29,889 bases of DNA, from IMG/VR virus record IMGVR_UViG_3300018080_000454, positions 1-29,889 of that record. One strand, given 5' to 3'. Positions within the stretch are counted from its first letter, which is position 1, and each line of letters begins with the position of its first letter. Both the position numbers and the translations under genes were made by a program. This document shows, piece after piece, positions 9,243-29,691 of this stretch. The notes under the pieces were generated by a model, which was not told where the DNA came from, searched no databases, and was given only the letters and a program-made list of their open reading frames with translations. This stretch comes from a virus.

Positions 9243-9674
9243 TTATACACATTCGGAATAGTCTGTGGCTAAATTTTCATATTTGTCTATTGATGCATCT
9301 GCCTGGGCGTGACATGATTTGCATAGAAACAATAACAAAAATGGTCGATCATGATCTGGGTGATGTGCTTCTATGGCCCCTTCTGCACCGCATAGTTCAC
9401 ATTCTTCTATTGGTATTATTTTGCCGGATTTGATTGCCTGACGCACAAGTGATCTTGCTGAGTTTTTTTCTGGAAATTTTTCCTTATCTCTGCGTGTGTT
9501 GGCTGCGTTATCTGTTGTTGGTTCACACTTCCTTGGTTCATTGGCCAATTTGGACGAACAAGCTCGGGAGCACGTATGCTGTTGACCCAGTTTCTCACTT
9601 TCGTTGATTCTTTTTATTGCTTTCTCGAATTGTTTTTTACACCATGCACATGTTACTATTTTTGATTTTGACAT
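9243..9674 (-). CDS. HNH-type protein with N-terminal zinc finger
   Basis: The product has 143 residues. The N-terminal part has CAWCKKQF (Cys9, Cys12) with HTCSRACSS about 25 residues later, a C4 zinc-finger-like unit. The C-terminal part has CELCGAEG, EAHHPDHDRP and LCKSCHAQAD, the arrangement of the small phage HNH family (CxxCG...HHxDxxxP...LCxxCH). The usual final His after CH is not obvious, so nuclease activity is uncertain. It may be a homing-type or packaging-associated endonuclease, or a DNA-binding relative. It starts on the TAATG overlap with the upstream gene, so it is an integral member of this operon rather than an evident insertion. Confidence 0.75.
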   Translation of the reverse strand: MSKSKIVTCAWCKKQFEKAIKRINESEKLGQQHTCSRACSSKLANEPRKCEPTTDNAANTRRDKEKFPEKNSARSLVRQAIKSGKIIPIEECELCGAEGAIEAHHPDHDRPFLLLFLCKSCHAQADASIDKYENLATDYSECV

Positions 9675-12037: not shown

Positions 12038-12699
12038 TATTCTTCTCCTTTGTTGTTTTCGTCCAACAATATGTCCACCAATATTTGTCTATTTTGTTGT
12101 ATTTCGTCTGGGGTTGATCCAGCAATTGTTAATTCTGTTAATATGCTGCTCAAAAAACAATATAATGTTGGATACATTGTCAATTTTGCTGGATTATCTG
12201 ACGGTTCTTCGCGTGGATCTTCTGCATTAAAACGTGGGTTGATTCGTATTGGTATATCTGCTATATTGTTAATTGAGGTGAATTCTACCGCAATCCGTGT
12301 TTCCTTATAGCACTCTGGCGTACATACGTGCTCCTCATCAAACAACGAAGCTGGACAATGGCTATTAATTCCGAACAACAACATCAAATTTTGCATTGAA
12401 GCTAAATTTTCTGGACCATCAACAAAATACCAAGCAAGTTCCAGGAAGTCAATAAAATCAACAAAGTCTTCATCTTTGGGCATATTAATTGTTTTTACGA
12501 ATGTTTGGAATTTTGACATACCCATGGCCGATGATAGATTGGGCATCATTTTATTGGCAGATTGTATCAACATAAATATGTCGCGTAGTGTTACGTCATC
12601 CGCGATGTCGACTACACTTCTTGGCAGGTCTATTGGTAGAAAATTGTCTCGGCAATATTCTTTTGTTATTTCAATTGTTTTAATCGCCTTGGCTTTCAT
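12037..12699 (-). CDS. hypothetical protein, 220 aa
   Basis: The product has 220 residues; AGGAG sits 5-6 bp before its ATG, inside the 3' end of the methyltransferase gene, which it overlaps by 20 bp. It is mostly helical and acidic. Cys-containing parts (SHCPASLFDEEHVCTPECYKE) might bind metal. The N-terminal half includes DDVTLRDIFMLIQSANKM and DFVDFIDFLELAWYF. It is not recognised; there are no signal peptide, membrane spans or catalytic motifs. It sits second in the operon and is co-expressed with the DNA methyltransferase. Confidence 0.75.
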   Translation of the reverse strand: MKAKAIKTIEITKEYCRDNFLPIDLPRSVVDIADDVTLRDIFMLIQSANKMMPNLSSAMGMSKFQTFVKTINMPKDEDFVDFIDFLELAWYFVDGPENLASMQNLMLLFGINSHCPASLFDEEHVCTPECYKETRIAVEFTSINNIADIPIRINPRFNAEDPREEPSDNPAKLTMYPTLYCFLSSILTELTIAGSTPDEIQQNRQILVDILLDENNKGEE

Positions 12700-13411
12700 A
12701 TTGTACTCCTAGATGTTGTGACGTTTTTTGAATAGTTGGTTCACTTATTTCTATTCCTATGCATTTTATTCCCATTTTTTGACAGATTATGGCGGTTGTT
12801 CCGGTGCCCAAAAATGGGTCTAAGACACATCCTCCACTAATGCAATGTCCCAGGACTATTCTCTCGACCATTTGTTCGGGCAATTGTGTTGGAACCCAAG
12901 ATCTTCTTTCTTTGAATGACCCACATATGCGGGAAAATTCCCACACATTTTGGGGTAATTTACCTCCAGGAGATGCTCTTTTATCTTTGTATTTTAATTG
13001 TCTTGCACTCGGTACCTTGATTAGATCTGCATTGATGTGTGGGGAGTTTAACCAATATACTGGCCTGTAGCATAGCGCATATTTGCCATTTCTTGTTTGG
13101 TCTTGTCCAAATGTATAGTGCCACTGTAATCTTTGTACTATGTCTATTCCGAGATCAAATATTGCCGCCTCGACGCTTGATGTCCATTTTTCGTTAAAAG
13201 TGAAAAAAATTGGTCCTTTTGTTAGATTGGTCATTGTGTCTAGCCAATCATATATTTTATCTTCATACACCCAACCCGGTTCATTATCGGCAAATCCATC
13301 GTATTTAAGTCCAATATTATCTGGTGGGTCAGCTACTATTAGGTCTATTTGTGTGTTTTGAAGTGTGGTCGCAGCTACTTGGACGAAATCACCATGTATT
13401 AGTTTAATCAT
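12680..13411 (-). CDS. DNA methyltransferase, beta-type N4/N6 family, with DPPD motif
   Basis: The product has 243 residues from ATG 13411; a GTG at 13447 would sit at the predicted transcript start. Motif IV appears early as IVADPPDNIG (about residues 26-34). The SAM-binding motif I appears late as VLDPFLGTGTTAI, followed by IGIEI. IV before I is the beta arrangement of cytosine-N4 and adenine-N6 enzymes. The usual aromatic residue after PP is Asp here (DPPD). A target-recognition segment lies between. No restriction gene is adjacent, so it may be an orphan enzyme protecting phage DNA. It is the first gene of the minus-strand operon. Confidence 0.85.
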   Translation of the reverse strand: MIKLIHGDFVQVAATTLQNTQIDLIVADPPDNIGLKYDGFADNEPGWVYEDKIYDWLDTMTNLTKGPIFFTFNEKWTSSVEAAIFDLGIDIVQRLQWHYTFGQDQTRNGKYALCYRPVYWLNSPHINADLIKVPSARQLKYKDKRASPGGKLPQNVWEFSRICGSFKERRSWVPTQLPEQMVERIVLGHCISGGCVLDPFLGTGTTAIICQKMGIKCIGIEISEPTIQKTSQHLGVQYESQGD

Positions 13412-13450
13412 TCCACTTATCTCACTTCTAGTGTGGTTTTGTTCCACGTC

Positions 13451-16266: not shown

Positions 16267-16522
16267 GAAGTCAAAGCAACGCAGTATTGCGAGAAGAATA
16301 TCTGGAGTAACTATGCCCATAAGAAGGAAGCGAATAAAATGGAATAGGAACTGGAAGTGTTTGTGTGGCAGTAATCGAAAATATAAGAATTGCTGTATGA
16401 AAGATCTAGATACCCTAAGTTCGTCCGATGGTAATATGGTTGTTCGGGATGTTCCTGAAGATGTTCATGAATTGGTAAATCTAATAAAAGAACAGCAAGA
16501 GAATGAAGAGGAGACAAAATAA
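16259..16522 (+). CDS. SEC-C motif mini-protein
   Basis: The product has 87 residues, basic at the N-terminus (MGKKSKQRSIARRISG...) and acidic at the C-terminus. At about residues 38-50 it reads CLCGSNRKYKNCC, a textbook SEC-C zinc-binding motif (CxCGSGxKYKxCC), as found at the end of SecA. The motif mediates binding to SecB, ribosome or other partners. The start overlaps the glycosyltransferase stop by 8 bp and has AAGGAG upstream; the stop overlaps the next start as TAATG. It is likely a small adaptor or nucleic-acid-binding protein. The partner is unknown. Confidence 0.75.
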   Translation: MGKKSKQRSIARRISGVTMPIRRKRIKWNRNWKCLCGSNRKYKNCCMKDLDTLSSSDGNMVVRDVPEDVHELVNLIKEQQENEEETK

Positions 16523-17535
16523 TGGATAAAAAGGCATTAGTTACTGGTGTGACAGGACAAGATGGTAGTTATTTGGCCGAATCACTTCTCGCAAAGGGAT
16601 ATAAGGTATATGGTCTAATTAGAAGATCTTCCACGGACACAACCGAACGAACAAGGGGGTTTATTCACCACCCACATTTTGAGTTTATAGAGGGGGATAT
16701 TACTGACGCATCGTGTATGAGTAGAATAGTTTCTGGGATTAAGTTTGATGAAATATACAATCTAGCAGCGATGAGTCACGTCGGCACTTCGTTTGATCAA
16801 CCAATGACCACATGCAGTATTGATGCAATTGGTCCCCTCAATATACTTGAAGCAATTAGGCAATTTTCTCCAAAGACGAAATATTATCAGGCAAGTACAT
16901 CTGAATTGTTTGGAGACACGTTGGATGCACCCCAATCCGAAAGTACCGCATTTAATCCTAATTCGCCGTATGCTGTTGCTAAATTGTATGCACATCATCT
17001 TGTAGCCCTTTATCGTCGTGCATATAATATTTTTGCTTGTGCTGGAATATTGTTCAATCATGAAAGTGAACGTCGCGGAGAAACTTTTGTGACGAGGAAG
17101 ATAACGAAATACGTAGCTATGTTGCAAAGATGGATGGATGTGAATGATGGGTTTCCAAAAGTCGATGTTGATGTATTTCCGCTAGCGTTGGGGAATATTG
17201 AAGCAAAGAGGGATTGGTCTCATGCTATTGATATGGTAGAAGGAATGTGGATGATGTTGCAGCATGAAAGTCCAGATGATTATGTGTTGGGTTCTGGAGA
17301 AACCCATTCGGTAAAAGATTTTCTAGAATTGGCTTTCGGCACTATAGGATTATCTTATAAAGATTATGTTGTTGTTGATCCAAAATTCTATCGTCCAGCA
17401 GATGTAAATTTGTTGCATGCAGATCCATCAAAAGCAAAAACTGTTTTGGGGTGGAATCCCACTATAAGTTTTGGCGAAATGATTGATATGATGGTTCAAA
17501 ATGATTATAGGATTGAGTCAGAATGCCGCGTTTAA
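16522..17535 (+). CDS. gmd: GDP-mannose 4,6-dehydratase
   Basis: The product has 337 residues, the usual length for the family. The NADP-binding glycine motif is GVTGQDGSYL (residues 9-18). Catalytic residues are in YQASTSELFG (Thr126, Glu128) and SPYAVAKLYAHH (Tyr150, Lys154). The family signatures LFNHESERRGETFVTRKIT and LGNIEAKRDWSHA are intact. It converts GDP-mannose to GDP-4-keto-6-deoxymannose, precursor of GDP-fucose, GDP-rhamnose or GDP-perosamine. No reductase or epimerase that would finish such a sugar is seen in the window, so host enzymes or genes outside must complete it. Its neighbours are a glycosyltransferase and the terminase. Confidence 0.95.
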   Translation: MDKKALVTGVTGQDGSYLAESLLAKGYKVYGLIRRSSTDTTERTRGFIHHPHFEFIEGDITDASCMSRIVSGIKFDEIYNLAAMSHVGTSFDQPMTTCSIDAIGPLNILEAIRQFSPKTKYYQASTSELFGDTLDAPQSESTAFNPNSPYAVAKLYAHHLVALYRRAYNIFACAGILFNHESERRGETFVTRKITKYVAMLQRWMDVNDGFPKVDVDVFPLALGNIEAKRDWSHAIDMVEGMWMMLQHESPDDYVLGSGETHSVKDFLELAFGTIGLSYKDYVVVDPKFYRPADVNLLHADPSKAKTVLGWNPTISFGEMIDMMVQNDYRIESECRV

Positions 17536-18059
17536 TTTTACCAAGTTATACTGTTATCAGGGATACTAGAGAACAACCGGGCCATGGTTGGACGTTTACT
17601 GCTCATTCTCCAGATCATCGTTCTCCAAGGTGTGATGGAACCCTTACAAATACTTTAGAGACCGGAGATTATAGTTTATTGGGGTATACAGACATCCTTG
17701 CGGTCGAGCGAAAATTTGCATTTTCTGAGTTATGGGGGAATTACAGCAAAGCAAAAAGACCGGCATTTGAGAAAGAAATGGAAAGAATGTCGGAGATGAA
17801 ACACGCATACATTATAATTGAGTCGTTGTTTACTCCAGACATTTTAGAATTATCTCCACCTCAATTTTCAAAGGGTGTCCCAGGCAAGTCTATGGTTAGA
17901 TGGTTGATGTCTTTGTCTGCCAAATATGGGGTTAAAATTATTCCGGCAGGTGCCTGTGGTAAAAAAATAGCTCAAATGATTTTTGAGGAAGTTGTTCGAG
18001 TTGAAAAAGATAGGTGGATTGCTCAAAAAAGACGAGGGGGAGATATAATTGGCGGATAA
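17523..18059 (+). CDS. ERCC4-type nuclease
   Basis: The product has 178 residues; its start lies within the last codons of gmd. RDTREQPG (residues 13-20), LETGDYSLLGY (45-55) and VERKFAFSELWG (61-72) form the ERCC4/XPF nuclease core (GD...ERKxxxD). A later HAYIIIE strand fits the same fold. In the ERK motif the usual Asp is not at +4: Ser68 is there, with Glu69 next, so the metal site may be altered. No helix-hairpin-helix tail is present. Such nucleases cut branched DNA. Directly next to TerL it may clear replication forks or junctions during packaging. It overlaps TerL by 11 bp. Confidence 0.8.
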   Translation: MPRLILPSYTVIRDTREQPGHGWTFTAHSPDHRSPRCDGTLTNTLETGDYSLLGYTDILAVERKFAFSELWGNYSKAKRPAFEKEMERMSEMKHAYIIIESLFTPDILELSPPQFSKGVPGKSMVRWLMSLSAKYGVKIIPAGACGKKIAQMIFEEVVRVEKDRWIAQKRRGGDIIGG

Positions 18060-21000
18060 GGTAACACTTCAAGAACTGATGCATGGTGATCAGGGCGAAT
18101 ATGGATATCTATTTCCATTTAGAAAAAGAGTCCCAACGATAAAGGATCATATATTTACCAATTTGAAGCAATCTACTCGTCCTTTAGATCATGTTGTTGT
18201 TGATCATATGCTAAATATTGATTATATTGGGTGGACGGCCAAAGTTATTCTTGGATTAGATTTGTTTCCAATCCAGATAGCAACACTGCAGACTATGTGG
18301 AATACTCCATTCCCGATGCTGATTGCCTGTCGCGGCGGCAGTAAGTCGTTTATGTTGGCGGTATATTCTGTCCTGAGGGCTCTGCTTGATCCAGGGACCA
18401 AGATAGTCATTGTTGGTGCTGGGTTAAGACAAGCACGACTGGTTTTTAATTACATAGATACCATTTGGAACAATTCTCCGGTATTAAGGAGTATTGTCGG
18501 TGGTGGGAAAAAAGCTGGACCAAGACAAAGTGTTGATCTATGTTACTTCAAAATAGGTGATTCAATTGTGTACGCTCTGCCTTTGGGCGATGGGTGTGTG
18601 TCTGGAGACACACTAACACTTTACAATGATTGTTTCGGAACAATATCTGATGATCAAGATTTTGGCCAAACCGAGAAAACCATTGTTGATCGAGATAGAG
18701 AAATATGGGGTAATGGCAAATTTAGAACCAGCGATGAATCATACTGTAATGGAAGAACTCTGACTAAAAAAATTGTTACAAGTAAGGGTTTCGAGATAGA
18801 GGGAACACATAATCATAAGATTAAGGTTCTGCGAGACGCAAAAGTACGATGGATAAGATTTGACGAAATGGTTATAGGGGATAGGGTGTTAATCGACCGT
18901 TCTATTAGGTGGCACAGTGGTTCGACAGATGTGACAATAGATGAGGGATACGCTCTTGGATTACTTGTTGGTGATGGGTGTTTTACATATTCAGATCGCC
19001 TTTCTTTCGCTACTGCCGATAAGGAATTGCTATCTGCCATGGAATGTATTGGAAAATTTGTTAAAGTAGACAGATCAGCCAAGTCTTATGAATATTATTG
19101 TTATGGCGGGAAAAAATCAAAACAGCAATTTATGGATAAGTTTGGGGTTAACCCAGTTTTGTCGTACAATAAAACTATTCCATCCACAATAATGCAATCC
19201 AGCAGAGAAGTTATGTCTGGTTTTATTCGCGGATTGTTTGACAGTGATGGTGGAGTGCAGATTGTTCGCCCAAACACAACTTCAATTGGAGGACAGATTC
19301 GCCTTACCAACACTAGCAAAAAATTACTTCAACAAGTTCAATTTATTTTACTGCATTATGGGATTATTTCGTCAATCAAAAAAAAGAAGGGCAATGAAAA
19401 ATCTCGTCACCAATGTTATGATTTGAGCATTTGTGGAAAAAATATCAAATTATTTGCAGACTATATAGGTTTTGGTCTAAAAAGAAAACAAGATATTCTT
19501 GATCAGATTATTAATGAGAAAAAAGCATACAAAGACCGTGATGATGTTGTTCCAGGAATTAATGGGTTTATGTCAAACATAGCTAAAGAATACAAGCACG
19601 GTCTAGTGGGGAAAGAGCGATTAGCGTTTAATACGATGATGTGCCGTATCCGCAATGGCAAGCAAAGCCGTTCACAGGCCATAAGATTCCTAGAAGTGTT
19701 TAAAAATGTTGATGATGAACGATTAACCATAATACAAAATTTGGTTGATGACGATATTTATTATGACGATATTATGGAAATTTGTGACGATGAATGCGTA
19801 ACATTTGATGTTCATGTTCCAGACAACCACGAATATTGTGCAGGGGGCTATTACAGCCACAATACAAAAATTCGTGGCTTCAGGGCTAATGTCGTCATTG
19901 CAGACGAATTTGCGTCGATTCCTGAAGACATATTTGATGTTGTTGTTCGTGGTTTCGCTGCTACTGCAAAAACCCCAGTAGAAGAAGCCAAAAAGATTGC
20001 GTTCAACAAAACATTATCAGATATGGATATTCCCAAAGACATAAAGAAAAAATTGCTGACAGACGACGGGAAAATGCATGGTAACCAGATAGTATATTCT
20101 GGTACTGCATATTATGCTTTTAACCATTTTGCGCTGAAATATCAGATGTGGTTGGATATCATAAGTAGTAAGGGAGATCCAGATCGTGTTGCACAAATTT
20201 TTGGTGGAGAAAATTTGGTACCAGATGAGTTCAATTACAAGGATTATTCAGTTATTCGTATTCCACACACCCACTTACCTGCTGGTCTTTTGGACGCTAG
20301 ACAGTTAGCTCATGCCAAGGCTACGCTACCCAAGAATATTTATCTTATGGAGTATGGTGCTGTTTTCGTAAAAGATTCGGATGGATTTTATCCACGAAGT
20401 TTAATAGAGGGGTGTACGGTTGGTCCAAATAGACCAATAGATACACCAGATGGTCAAGTTACATTTACTCCTTTGATGAGAGGCCAATCCGGTAGGAAGT
20501 ATGTTATGGGAATTGATCCTGCTGCAGAAAAGGATAATTTGGCGGTAGTAATCATAGAGGTTTGGAAAAATCATTATAGGATAGTTCATTGTTGGGCCGT
20601 CAACAAAAAGGAGTTCATAAGACGTAAGAAATTGGGGTTTATCACCGATGACGATTATTATGCTTATTGTTGTTCTAGAATACGTGAAATAGTAAGAATT
20701 TTTAACCCAATAAGAATAGAGATGGATAGTCAGGGTGGTGGCTATGCCGTTTCCGAAATGTTAAGAAACAAAAAATTACTAAATATTCCAGATGGTGATT
20801 TCCCGATTTATGAGGTTATTGATTTTGATAATCCAAAAGATACTGATGGAGAAACAGACGGAAGACACATATTACATTTGGTTCAACAAAGTAGTGAATA
20901 TAACCAAAACGCGAATATAGCATTACATAAAAGTCTTGAGACTAGAACCCTATTATTTCCAGCATTTGATAGTGTAAAAATGTTTTCATCACTTCAAGCA

Positions 21001-21417
21001 GAAAAATCTGAAGGGATAATCGTAGATACATATGAAGAGAATGTTTTTAATATTGAAGAATTGAAAAACGAATTATGTACTATACAGATGAGCGAGACCA
21101 CCACTGGAAGAGAAAGATTTGATACACCTACTGTAATTCAGCCAGGGGCAGTTGAAGGCAGGACACGAAAGGGTAGGCTCAAGAAGGATAGATATACAGC
21201 ACTAATGTTAGCCCACAAATTTATTTACGATACAGAAGTAACTCCGAATTATGATATTGATTATGAGGATGTGGCCGGAAACGTTGAAAAACGATCAAAA
21301 CCCGGTGAAGATAAGGCATTGTATCGTGGTCCTGGTGTTGGAAGAATGAGAAACAGCAGTGGTGCCAGGGAGGGAAATTTATTTGGTGCATTAAAACGTG
21401 GAGAAAAATTTAGATAA
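18049..21417 (+). CDS. terL: terminase large subunit, interrupted by an intein
   Basis: The precursor has 1122 residues; after removal of a 423-residue intein (residues 183-605) the mature protein has 699. ATPase: a variant Walker A CRGGSKS (94-100) and Walker B VVIADE (Asp619, Glu620 in precursor). Nuclease: YVMGIDPAAEKD with Asp823, IEMDSQGGG with Asp893 and KDRYTALMLAH with Asp1047, the acidic triad of the RNase H-like domain. It drives ATP-dependent DNA packaging into the prohead and cuts the concatemer. The start is TTG 18049, with AGGGGGAGA upstream, overlapping the nuclease gene. The next gene, portal, is its docking partner and has its own promoter. Confidence 0.93.
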   Translation: MADKVTLQELMHGDQGEYGYLFPFRKRVPTIKDHIFTNLKQSTRPLDHVVVDHMLNIDYIGWTAKVILGLDLFPIQIATLQTMWNTPFPMLIACRGGSKSFMLAVYSVLRALLDPGTKIVIVGAGLRQARLVFNYIDTIWNNSPVLRSIVGGGKKAGPRQSVDLCYFKIGDSIVYALPLGDGCVSGDTLTLYNDCFGTISDDQDFGQTEKTIVDRDREIWGNGKFRTSDESYCNGRTLTKKIVTSKGFEIEGTHNHKIKVLRDAKVRWIRFDEMVIGDRVLIDRSIRWHSGSTDVTIDEGYALGLLVGDGCFTYSDRLSFATADKELLSAMECIGKFVKVDRSAKSYEYYCYGGKKSKQQFMDKFGVNPVLSYNKTIPSTIMQSSREVMSGFIRGLFDSDGGVQIVRPNTTSIGGQIRLTNTSKKLLQQVQFILLHYGIISSIKKKKGNEKSRHQCYDLSICGKNIKLFADYIGFGLKRKQDILDQIINEKKAYKDRDDVVPGINGFMSNIAKEYKHGLVGKERLAFNTMMCRIRNGKQSRSQAIRFLEVFKNVDDERLTIIQNLVDDDIYYDDIMEICDDECVTFDVHVPDNHEYCAGGYYSHNTKIRGFRANVVIADEFASIPEDIFDVVVRGFAATAKTPVEEAKKIAFNKTLSDMDIPKDIKKKLLTDDGKMHGNQIVYSGTAYYAFNHFALKYQMWLDIISSKGDPDRVAQIFGGENLVPDEFNYKDYSVIRIPHTHLPAGLLDARQLAHAKATLPKNIYLMEYGAVFVKDSDGFYPRSLIEGCTVGPNRPIDTPDGQVTFTPLMRGQSGRKYVMGIDPAAEKDNLAVVIIEVWKNHYRIVHCWAVNKKEFIRRKKLGFITDDDYYAYCCSRIREIVRIFNPIRIEMDSQGGGYAVSEMLRNKKLLNIPDGDFPIYEVIDFDNPKDTDGETDGRHILHLVQQSSEYNQNANIALHKSLETRTLLFPAFDSVKMFSSLQAEKSEGIIVDTYEENVFNIEELKNELCTIQMSETTTGRERFDTPTVIQPGAVEGRTRKGRLKKDRYTALMLAHKFIYDTEVTPNYDIDYEDVAGNVEKRSKPGEDKALYRGPGVGRMRNSSGAREGNLFGALKRGEKFR
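18595..19863 (+). mobile_element. intein with LAGLIDADG homing endonuclease inside terL
   Basis: The element encodes 423 residues. Splicing blocks: A starts CVSGDT with Cys1; B is EGTHNHKI with Thr71 and His74 (intein numbering); F is CVTFDVHVPDNHEYC; G ends YYSHN, followed by Thr as the +1 residue. The endonuclease has both dodecapeptide motifs, ALGLLVGDG (120-128) and GFIRGLFDSDGG (209-220), so it looks active. The insertion lies between LPLGDG and TKIRGFRA, just ahead of Walker B, a highly conserved part of terminases, as expected for a homing element. Splicing should restore a continuous ATPase domain. Confidence 0.93.
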
Positions 21418-26629: not shown

Positions 26630-27658
26630 ATGAAGCGCAATAAAATTCAAAAGCCTACTCAAGAGCAAGTTGAACTTTTGAGACGTACTGGTTCAGCCGA
26701 TAGGTCTGAAGCAATGCAGGCTATGTCGGAGCTAGCTAAAGCTCTACAAATTCCTCTGCGTTCTGCGCTGTTGGATGGAGATATTTTGAGTGGAATCTTT
26801 ACTCCCGAAGTTCTCGATCCAAGTGCTACTGCTGAATATCCATTGGATCTTTATCAGACCGCAAATGAGGGTGACTATGCTGCATATATGATTCCTAGTG
26901 AGGGTGCTCTACCACAGCGTACAATCTCTGGGGATGCAGTAACTATCAACACGTATGACGTTGGTAATGCTATCGATTGGCCTCTGAAATACTCTTTCTC
27001 TGCACGGTGGAACATCGTAGCACGTGCAATGGAAGTCCTTGAAGCAGGATTTGTTACAAAGATGAATACTGACGGATGGAGAGTTATTTTGGCTGCTGGT
27101 GCTGGCCGTACCGACTATGCGGGTGGGGCTCCACTGGTTTATGACAGTGCTGCTACTGCTGGTCAATTCACAAAGAGACTAGTTTCTCTGATGAAGACCA
27201 CAATGACTCGTCTTGCCGGTGGAAACAGTGCTTCGCTCAACCGTGGCAAGCTGACTGACCTATATCTAAGCCCAGAGGCTATTGAAGATATTCGTGAGTG
27301 GGATGCTGATGAGGTTGATGAAGTAACTAGGAGAGAAATCATGACTGCAGAGGATAGTGGTGGTACACTGTCTCGCATTTATGGTGTCAATCTACATCCA
27401 CTAGATGAGCTTGGTGAAGGCTATGAACTTCAGACATACTTTGATACACTTGGTCTTAGTATGGGTACCAGTGACGTTGAGGTCGTAATTGGCCTAGATC
27501 TCTCCAAGGATGACTCGTTTGTCATGCCAGTAAAAAGAGAGTTGGCCATTTTTGAAGACGACACTCTTCACAGACGCCAGAAGGCTGGGTTCTACGGTTG
27601 GCAAGAACATGGTTTTGCAGCCCTAGACGGACGAAGAGTTCTCTTGGGTAGCTTCTAA
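26630..27658 (+). CDS. major capsid protein
   Basis: The product has 342 residues. Context (protease-scaffold and decoration genes upstream, terminator right behind) and pattern support an HK97-fold capsid protein: N-terminal helix, SALLDGDILSGIFTPEVL, an E-loop-like AAYMIPSEGALP, spine helix (WNIVARAMEVLEAGFVTKMNTDGW), then GKLTDLYLSPEAIEDIREW and a P-domain-like end (HGFAALDGRRVLLGSF). GGGGGTGA lies upstream of the ATG. The codon composition is noticeably richer in C-ending codons than that of the neighbours, as expected for the most abundant protein. Confidence 0.88.
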   Translation: MKRNKIQKPTQEQVELLRRTGSADRSEAMQAMSELAKALQIPLRSALLDGDILSGIFTPEVLDPSATAEYPLDLYQTANEGDYAAYMIPSEGALPQRTISGDAVTINTYDVGNAIDWPLKYSFSARWNIVARAMEVLEAGFVTKMNTDGWRVILAAGAGRTDYAGGAPLVYDSAATAGQFTKRLVSLMKTTMTRLAGGNSASLNRGKLTDLYLSPEAIEDIREWDADEVDEVTRREIMTAEDSGGTLSRIYGVNLHPLDELGEGYELQTYFDTLGLSMGTSDVEVVIGLDLSKDDSFVMPVKRELAIFEDDTLHRRQKAGFYGWQEHGFAALDGRRVLLGSF

Positions 27659-27698: not shown

Positions 27699-27729
27699 GG
27701 GGGGAGGGTAAAACCTTCCCCCTCTTTTT
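27699..27729 (+). terminator. intrinsic terminator after the capsid gene
   Basis: The arm 27699-27709 (GGGGGGAGGGT) pairs with 27713-27723 (ACCTTCCCCCT) with two G-U pairs and a 3-nt loop. TTTTT (27725-27729) follows. It ends the head-gene message 40 bp after the capsid stop. Confidence 0.88.
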
Positions 27730-27757
27730 ATTGTGTGCAACAAATATTCAAGTAGGA

Positions 27758-27765
27758 TGTATAAT
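27758..27765 (+). promoter_or_regulatory. candidate promoter TGTATAAT-type, leaderless arrangement
   Basis: ATGTATAAT lies at about 27757-27765, with TATAAT at 27760-27765. The ATG of the next gene (27771) is 5 bp after it, so transcription would begin at or just beyond the start codon. No ribosome-binding site is seen at normal distance. Confidence 0.45.
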
Positions 27766-27770
27766 ACTAT

Positions 27771-29219
27771 ATGAGGCCAGCAAACATTGACGAAGACAGA
27801 TGGATAGACTTATATGTTAACCAGAAATTGACCGCGAAGATGTGCGCCTCCATGTTGGGCGTAAGTCAATCGACTCTTGTTAGACGTTTGAAAAAACTTG
27901 GCGTTTCGATTAGATCGCCGACAAAACGGTTGATTGAGGATGTTTCAGACGAGCAAGTTGTCGATTTGTATTGGAATAAAAATTTTAGCATAGCAAGAAC
28001 AGCGGAGGAACTAGGGAAAAGCTGTGGTTTTGTTAAGGGAAGGTTGAAAAAATCTGGACATGGAACAAGGACGGTCCGAGATGGAGTAAGATTGTCTAAG
28101 GGCAGCGATGAAATAAAAAATGAACAATTAATTTATATGCACGACACTCTGGGCTGGTCTTGTGTAAAAATATCAAAACATTTCGGTAAAACTGAAGAAT
28201 TTGTTAGACAAAGATTTATTTCTATTGGGAAGGATAGAAGGAAAAATATTGGACAACACAATGGTTCGTGGAAAGGTGGAATAACTAATATAAGAAATGC
28301 GGTAAGATCATGTGCCGCAATGTTGAAATGGAGAGACGATGCTTTTGCTAGAAGTGATTACAAAAGCGAACTTTCCGGAGAGACCGGAGTATTGAATTGT
28401 CATCACATATATCCTTTTAGAAATATTCTAAAATCTTCAATCCGTAAACATTCCTTTCTCCCAGCAGAATATAGAGATGTCGCAATAGTTCATGATGCAA
28501 GATTTTGTGACAATAATAACAGCCTCGTCGTAACCAAAAGTGAGCATGATGAAATAGAGAGGTGTCACAACAATGCAAATCAATGGTGGAAGATATGGAG
28601 GTTGAATGCAGATGTAGCAATTGATAGGAGTGGAATGTCAAATGAAGATTTTAATTTATTTGATAGTAGTGGAATGATTACGGTGAATGAATATCGTGTT
28701 GTTGAAGCACAAAAGAGTGAAATAGAAGATATTATTAGATACGAACATTATATTGGTACAATTCCAGTGTCAAAAATAATTTTAACAGCAAAAGTAGGCG
28801 GGATTATTGTTGGTATTGCTACTTTTGGGTCTGGCACCAACAAGCATACCAAAATGGGAGAAATAGAGTTAACTCGATTATGTGTTCCATCATATGTACA
28901 CAGACATTTTTCGTGCTGTTTTTTGAAACAGTGTCGTCTATACATTAGACAACATTATCGATGCATCAAAAAAATAGTAGCATTTGCAGACCATTCTGTT
29001 GGTCACGATGGTGGTGTTTACAGAATGGCTGGATGGAAGAAATGTGGAAAAACTCAGCCTAGTTATGTTTATTTTGATCCAACAACCCTTTCTGTTAGAC
29101 ACAAAGCCGCATGTAGAAGAATTAAGGGTGTTGACAAAACAGAGAAAGAGCTGGCAAAAGAAAGGGGCTGGATCAGGATTACCACACAATACAAGTATAA
29201 ATATTCAATTTCAACATAA
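27771..29219 (+). CDS. HTH-HNH-Mom-like fusion protein
   Basis: The product has 482 residues. Residues 1-155 hold three related helix-turn-helix units (around 21-45, 72-96 and 125-150), each with A-x-x-LG or I-x-x-xFG before the recognition helix. Residues 165-265 are an HNH-type nuclease without the CxxC pairs: GSWKGG, WRDDAFARSDY, CHHIYPF (His211, His212), NNNSLVV and SEHDE (His259). Residues about 317-436 match Mom-like GNAT-fold proteins (GEIELTRLCVP, VAFADHSVGHDGGVYRMAGWKKCG). Mom of phage Mu modifies adenine. It stands alone between a terminator and a promoter, like a free-standing homing gene. The domain order is clear; the function of the last domain is inference. Confidence 0.7.
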   Translation: MRPANIDEDRWIDLYVNQKLTAKMCASMLGVSQSTLVRRLKKLGVSIRSPTKRLIEDVSDEQVVDLYWNKNFSIARTAEELGKSCGFVKGRLKKSGHGTRTVRDGVRLSKGSDEIKNEQLIYMHDTLGWSCVKISKHFGKTEEFVRQRFISIGKDRRKNIGQHNGSWKGGITNIRNAVRSCAAMLKWRDDAFARSDYKSELSGETGVLNCHHIYPFRNILKSSIRKHSFLPAEYRDVAIVHDARFCDNNNSLVVTKSEHDEIERCHNNANQWWKIWRLNADVAIDRSGMSNEDFNLFDSSGMITVNEYRVVEAQKSEIEDIIRYEHYIGTIPVSKIILTAKVGGIIVGIATFGSGTNKHTKMGEIELTRLCVPSYVHRHFSCCFLKQCRLYIRQHYRCIKKIVAFADHSVGHDGGVYRMAGWKKCGKTQPSYVYFDPTTLSVRHKAACRRIKGVDKTEKELAKERGWIRITTQYKYKYSIST

Positions 29220-29293
29220 CATTTTTAGATTATAATCGCAATCAACACACAACATTACCAATTCTATAACACGTCAAGCACAAGGTAGCTATG

Positions 29294-29364: not shown

Positions 29365-29691
29365 ATGACGATTGTAGAATTTAATTTTTGTCCAGAAGCA
29401 GCACCTTCGGTGGTTGGAACACTGGTCACTGGCGGGACGGTGAACATAGAGTTGTGGGAAAATGGTGTAAGCGTTATTCCGTCGTCTAGTGGATGCACTG
29501 AAATTGGTAATACTGGAAATTTTAGTTGGTCTACAAGTGGACTACCAACTTTGACGTCTAGCAGACAACAGTTTCATTGGAGAATGTCTGATGGGTCGAA
29601 TACAGATGAGGGTGATTTTGTATTAATATCTATTGAAAATTATGATGGAGGAATGCCATCTTTGGATGATAAAAGTTCATATTTAGTATAA
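29365..29691 (+). CDS. hypothetical structural-module protein, 108 aa
   Basis: The product has 108 residues (MTIVEFNFCPEAAPSVVGTLV...). It is beta-rich and Ser/Thr-rich (TVNIELWENGVSVIP, GNTGNFSWSTSGLPTL, QQFHWRMSDGSN), like an immunoglobulin-like or beta-sandwich domain of a minor head or fibre protein. It has no signal peptide. It has its own promoter element and ribosome-binding site and is followed 19 bp later by another beta-rich gene, so it probably opens a new structural operon. No family is recognised. Confidence 0.75.
   Translation: MTIVEFNFCPEAAPSVVGTLVTGGTVNIELWENGVSVIPSSSGCTEIGNTGNFSWSTSGLPTLTSSRQQFHWRMSDGSNTDEGDFVLISIENYDGGMPSLDDKSSYLV

Follow-up and report, generated by a model that had tools for sequence, protein, structure and literature searches.

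A viral gene joining helix-turn-helix units, an HNH nuclease and a Mom-family domain at a variable site beside a probable major capsid gene

Why should a phage nuclease carry a DNA-modification domain in its own polypeptide chain? The question is raised by an open reading frame (ORF) in a viral sequence of 29,889 nucleotides (IMG/VR record IMGVR_UViG_3300018080_000454), the whole of which is referred to here as the window. The initial annotation, made from the DNA letters, had described three helix-turn-helix (HTH) units, an HNH core formed by His211, His212 and His259, and a C-terminal Mom-like pattern in this one protein. The 482-residue chain carries the HTH units in its N-terminal third, the HNH domain in the middle and the Mom domain at the C-terminus, with the following coordinates:

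27771..29219, + strand: HTHx3-HNH-Mom gene, 482 aa, ATG start; ORF bounds exact
27792..27899, + strand: HTH unit 1, residues 8-43 (Pfam HTH matches, helices in the AF2 model)
27948..28052, + strand: HTH unit 2, residues 60-94 (Sigma70_r4 at 62-94, AF2 model)
28119..28226, + strand: HTH unit 3, residues 117-152 (weak HTH_23 match at 119-146, AF2 model)
28242..28601, + strand: HNH nuclease domain, about residues 158-277 (conserved core residues, fold match)
28680..29216, + strand: Mom-family GNAT domain, residues 304-482 (PF25680, 8bv8 match, residue table)

The three HTH units were recovered by Pfam, in which Sigma70_r4 matches the ORF in two stretches (9.1e-6) and other HTH models match more weakly, and by the AF2 model, which contains three tri-helical units (residues 8-42, 60-94 and 117-152). 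Further HTH-like sequence lies in frame in L001-L005 and L008, N-terminal to the aligned part. HNH was not called by Pfam itself in this ORF, and PHROG_8446 (HNH) matches residues 7-219 of the protein. The proposed core histidines are all present, and H211, H212, N250 and H259 are invariant in an alignment of 18 homologues. Because the HNH part fell below 50 pLDDT in the full-length AF2 model, the domain was folded alone with the 18-sequence alignment. The fold of the resulting model (AF2, pLDDT 82) matches HNH nucleases, which make up most of its higher-ranked structure matches; the best is the GVE2 HNH endonuclease (5h0m, Z 9.1), followed at lower rank by T5 SciA, McrA-type, Cap5 and Cas9 HNH domains. 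The position of the last histidine of the H-x3-H motif is occupied by Glu263, whereas the other HNH genes found at the same site have histidine there.

An IMG/VR search with the ORF returned the further HTH-HNH-Mom proteins that the initial annotation had suggested looking for: the layout is kept in 8 homologues of 52-58% identity, and the architecture is real and well supported. Within this family the mean pairwise identity is highest for Mom (0.67), followed by HNH (0.63) and HTH (0.53). The gene is under strong purifying selection, with a dN/dS of about 0.09 for Mom in the pair L001/L003, a value that is only rough because dS is high. Relatives of the ORF were detected neither among 50,697 phage records at 1e-5 nor in the bacterial and archaeal genome contigs searched. 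An artefactual fusion through a missed stop codon was considered and dropped, given that the 8 homologues keep the layout and that a TAG between the halves occurs only in L006. A SAM-dependent type IIG restriction enzyme was likewise dropped, as profile searches returned no methyltransferase match for the ORF. The L006 codon (L006:5829-5831) is an in-frame TAG, replacing the Trp of the relatives and parting HNH from Mom.

The C-terminal match to Mom is, as judged from sequence profiles, far beyond chance. Pfam PF25680 (Mom) covers residues 308-478 with an E-value of 1.5e-14 (score 54.5 bits, cut-off 27.1), PHROG_1384 (Mom-like DNA modification protein) covers residues 301-477 at 1.5e-21, and the pattern noted earlier reads FADHSVGHDGGVYRMAGW. 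The C-terminal domain does not have an unrelated fold, since the model of residues from about 304 to 482 is closest to phage Mu Mom: the Mom part of the full AF2 model has 8bv8 (phage Mu Mom) as its best structure (Z 13.3, 2.6 A, 138 aligned), with generic GNAT structures ranking below it (Z 11.8 or less). The GNAT fold and most of the conserved active-site residues are thus common to Mu Mom and to the protein studied here. Numbering Mu Mom on its 231-aa sequence, the equivalent pairs are H326/H48, Y327/Y49, E366/E98, R369/R101, D407/D139, G414/G146 and Y417/Y149, several of which we take to be catalytic. The equivalents of H48, E98, R101, D139, G146 and Y149 are invariant across the family. 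A difference lies at one further position. The title of the 8bv8 entry names an inactive mutant, S124A, whose Ala corresponds to S114 in the 231-aa numbering; whereas the stand-alone Mu Mom has Ser at this position, the fused domain has Cys382, and Cys is found in 8/8 family members. Among the matches listed, the same position is Ser or Thr in 59/59 stand-alone Moms and in 35/35 other nuclease-linked Moms, and the active-site positions are retained in nearly all of the latter 35. The HNH and Mom sites are accordingly nearly complete, with one consistent substitution each (Glu263 and Cys382). In the Mom domains of the classic Hef homing endonucleases, unlike in the present family, the active site is partly lost (Tyr49 lost, Asp139 partly lost). 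The Cys in place of Ser here and the active-site loss in classic Hefs are a warning that activity may be lost or changed in some of these proteins. The same two features would be expected if Mom were a catalytically dead or altered module for DNA binding or adenine recognition, serving only to help the nuclease find its site. We consider this unlikely in view of the six invariant positions, the Ser/Thr of all 35 other nuclease-linked Moms among the matches listed and the strong purifying selection.

The position of the gene was evaluated through the following features of its surroundings:

26630..27658, + strand: probable major capsid gene anchoring the site (position in the gene order, following portal and cement genes)
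27699..27723, + strand: terminator-like hairpin, ending the upstream gene immediately before the element
27735..29288, no strand assigned: stretch missing from the empty allele of L010 (local alignments, both flanks)
29365..29691, + strand: conserved gene flanking the site at its other end

The upstream anchor gene probably encodes the major capsid protein, an assignment based on gene order; its product was recognized by neither Pfam nor PHROGs and had no match among the phage records. All 8 IMG/VR homologues (8/8) sit directly downstream of the same probable capsid gene. A search with the capsid gene yielded 24 loci, to which occupants were assigned by reading each locus. The HTH-HNH-Mom gene is present in 2/24 (L013 and L020, on the contigs of L008 and L003), an HTH-HNH gene without Mom in 12/24, and a small HTH gene alone in 7/24, while the site is empty in 2/24 (L010 and L017); the remaining locus, L014, ends at the contig edge with the start of similar HTH sequence visible. 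L010 has a capsid protein 96% identical to that of the window and a next gene 91% identical, and in it 44 bp of unrelated sequence replace 27735-29288, leaving an intergenic gap of 201 bp. One of the alternative occupants, L011, shares 44% identity with the present protein across residues 1-262, and such same-site genes (L011, L015, L033 and others) have the HTH array and HNH domain in common with it but lack Mom. This polymorphism, with its alternative HTH-HNH occupants, looks like that of free-standing homing endonuclease genes. The empty site of L010 and the Mom-less HTH-HNH genes of relatives therefore make the gene a likely free-standing homing-type element, and they support the earlier suggestion that a homing-type nuclease joined to Mom forms a mobile gene.

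Other genes in the region and the window were also noted. Most relatives (L011-L033) have at the site a short, conserved gene whose product of about 115-140 aa consists of HTH sequence only (PHROG_323, D5-like); the window lacks it. At 18049-21417 an intein carrying a LAGLIDADG homing domain interrupts the terminase large subunit (PF14528 3e-21, PF14890 3.2e-7), and a GDP-mannose 4,6-dehydratase gene lies near the terminase gene at 16522-17535 (PF16363 1.6e-117). On the minus strand are a small endonuclease gene (9243-9674; PHROG_2340, HNH-like motif HHPDHD...CKSCH) and an N6/N4 DNA methyltransferase gene (12680-13447; PF01555 3.5e-29).

Viral contigs were scanned with two DNA patterns followed by ORF analysis, the counts of the first scan being lower bounds, and Mom domains were found C-terminal to several nuclease types. 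Vsr/DUF559/MTES_1575-like nucleases precede Mom in at least 27 ORFs according to a small custom HMM, with weak Pfam support. HNH is joined to Mom in L088 and L220 by Pfam PF01844 and in L191, L206 and L209 by motif alone; LAGLIDADG is joined to Mom in L215 by PF14528 and in the identical L221. The L201 ORF contains HTH units, NUMOD3 and a further region that we suspect, from its sequence, to be PD-(D/E)XK; Pfam returns a weak match to DUF790. In Geobacillus phage PK3.6 (L171:1848-3030), HNH and Mom-like genes are separate, overlapping and adjacent. A tree was built from 105 Mom domains; its bootstrap is incompletely settled, and in it one branch with support of 98/92 parts the 46 nuclease-linked domains from the 59 stand-alone ones. 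Single genomes hold at least two nuclease-Mom genes whose Mom domains are 37-66% identical, and within a 427-kb contig and within a 242-kb contig the copies are tied to different nuclease types. These data bear on the possibility that the Mom of a homing nuclease protects the entire phage genome from host restriction by modifying it, the parasite gene thereby paying its way. Phages commonly encode stand-alone Mom proteins, and the active-site residues of the fused domains are mostly retained; however, several diverged copies per genome would be redundant, the fused Moms form a clade of their own and the gene is missing altogether from the close relatives L010 and L017, so that we regard this explanation, too, as improbable.

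Comparison with known systems indicates which part of the arrangement is new. The Hef-like homing endonucleases (phage U5 Hef, PHROG_3339, and those of Campylobacter phage IBB_35, Klebsiella phage RaK2 and Escherichia phage PC3, the last three being full-length or nearly full-length PHROG_3339 members) consist of a nuclease followed by a Mom-like C-terminus, as here. They are encoded in intergenic positions next to genes for capsid, tail or topoisomerase, as the present gene is next to a probable capsid gene; in PC3 and Vibrio phage Bakedbeans, too, a Hef-like gene immediately follows the capsid gene. The N-termini differ, however, being DUF7487 in Hef-like proteins and matching Vsr/DUF559/MTES_1575-type nucleases in PC3 and in the viral-contig relatives, as opposed to the HTH array and HNH domain found here. 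Positions 365-523 of the PHROG_3339 profile ('homing endonuclease') match residues 309-470 at 2e-11, which is its C-terminal part only; its N-terminal DUF7487/nuclease region has no match in the protein, where HNH stands instead. PHROG_559, likewise a Hef-like 'homing endonuclease' family, also matches the protein with its C-terminal part only. In jumbo phages, Mom is reported to be fused to REase-fold nucleases (PMC7824862), which resemble the present protein in uniting Mom and an endonuclease in one chain and differ in nuclease fold and in being read as restriction-modification rather than homing. T4 mob (HNH) homing endonucleases, as described in PMC2988022, also place HNH in intergenic DNA beside a conserved gene; there HNH is fused to a distinct, presumably DNA-binding, C-terminal region, in a description that includes no Mom domain. 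The principle of a nuclease-Mom fusion is therefore already known from the Hef-like/PHROG_3339 proteins and the jumbo-phage fusions (PMC7824862), and the statement of the initial annotation that no such fusion is established holds only for the HNH form, which was not found in the literature searched. The spread of Mom over several nuclease types was not found there either, and its generality is apparently unreported so far. A restriction-modification weapon without homing, in which Mom marks phage DNA and the nuclease degrades host or superinfecting DNA that lacks the mark, follows the same domain logic as proposed for the jumbo-phage fusions (PMC7824862) but is quite doubtful, as the fixed insertion site with its empty allele, the alternative occupants without Mom and the positions beside genes for capsid, tail sheath and topoisomerase are more in keeping with homing.

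The best explanation, which we advance tentatively and at somewhat less than an even chance, is that of a free-standing homing-type endonuclease gene carrying its own DNA-modification domain, which protects the donor. The HTH array would locate a target within the conserved region of the capsid gene or close to it, and the HNH domain would cut or nick that target in a co-infecting relative lacking the gene; repair of the cut relative would copy the gene across. In such intronless homing the target of the donor would stay uninterrupted; free-standing phage homing nucleases cut at least hundreds of bp from their own gene according to PMC2988022, and the donor target would hence be intact. Under this proposal the fused Mom would acylate one or more adenines at or near the same target on the donor, and a donor target so marked would escape self-cutting. 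A single Mom clade with varied nucleases, several copies per genome and preserved active sites would appear to fit a partner role of this kind better than a genome-wide anti-restriction coat. Against the explanation, caution is called for by the Cys at the Mu Ser position, Glu263 in H-x3-H, the decay of Hef Moms and the L006 TAG. The site is also held by HTH-HNH genes without Mom, and Mom is thus dispensable for its occupancy.

More broadly, and with a lesser degree of confidence, the nuclease-linked Moms could represent a general class of homing endonucleases that immunise themselves, in which one Mom lineage has been placed on at least four nuclease types (Vsr/DUF559-like, HNH, LAGLIDADG and one that is possibly PD-(D/E)XK), each copy guarding its donor. 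Since the target of a free-standing homing nuclease stays intact in the donor, the donor's escape from cutting calls for an explanation. A modification domain common to unrelated nuclease types would be a direct one and would tie homing to restriction-modification; if the class is real, the logic of restriction-modification has been merged into homing. A further implication is that an overlooked base-modifying enzyme may be present in many proteins annotated as 'homing endonuclease', and such nuclease-linked Moms could provide site-directed adenine acylation.
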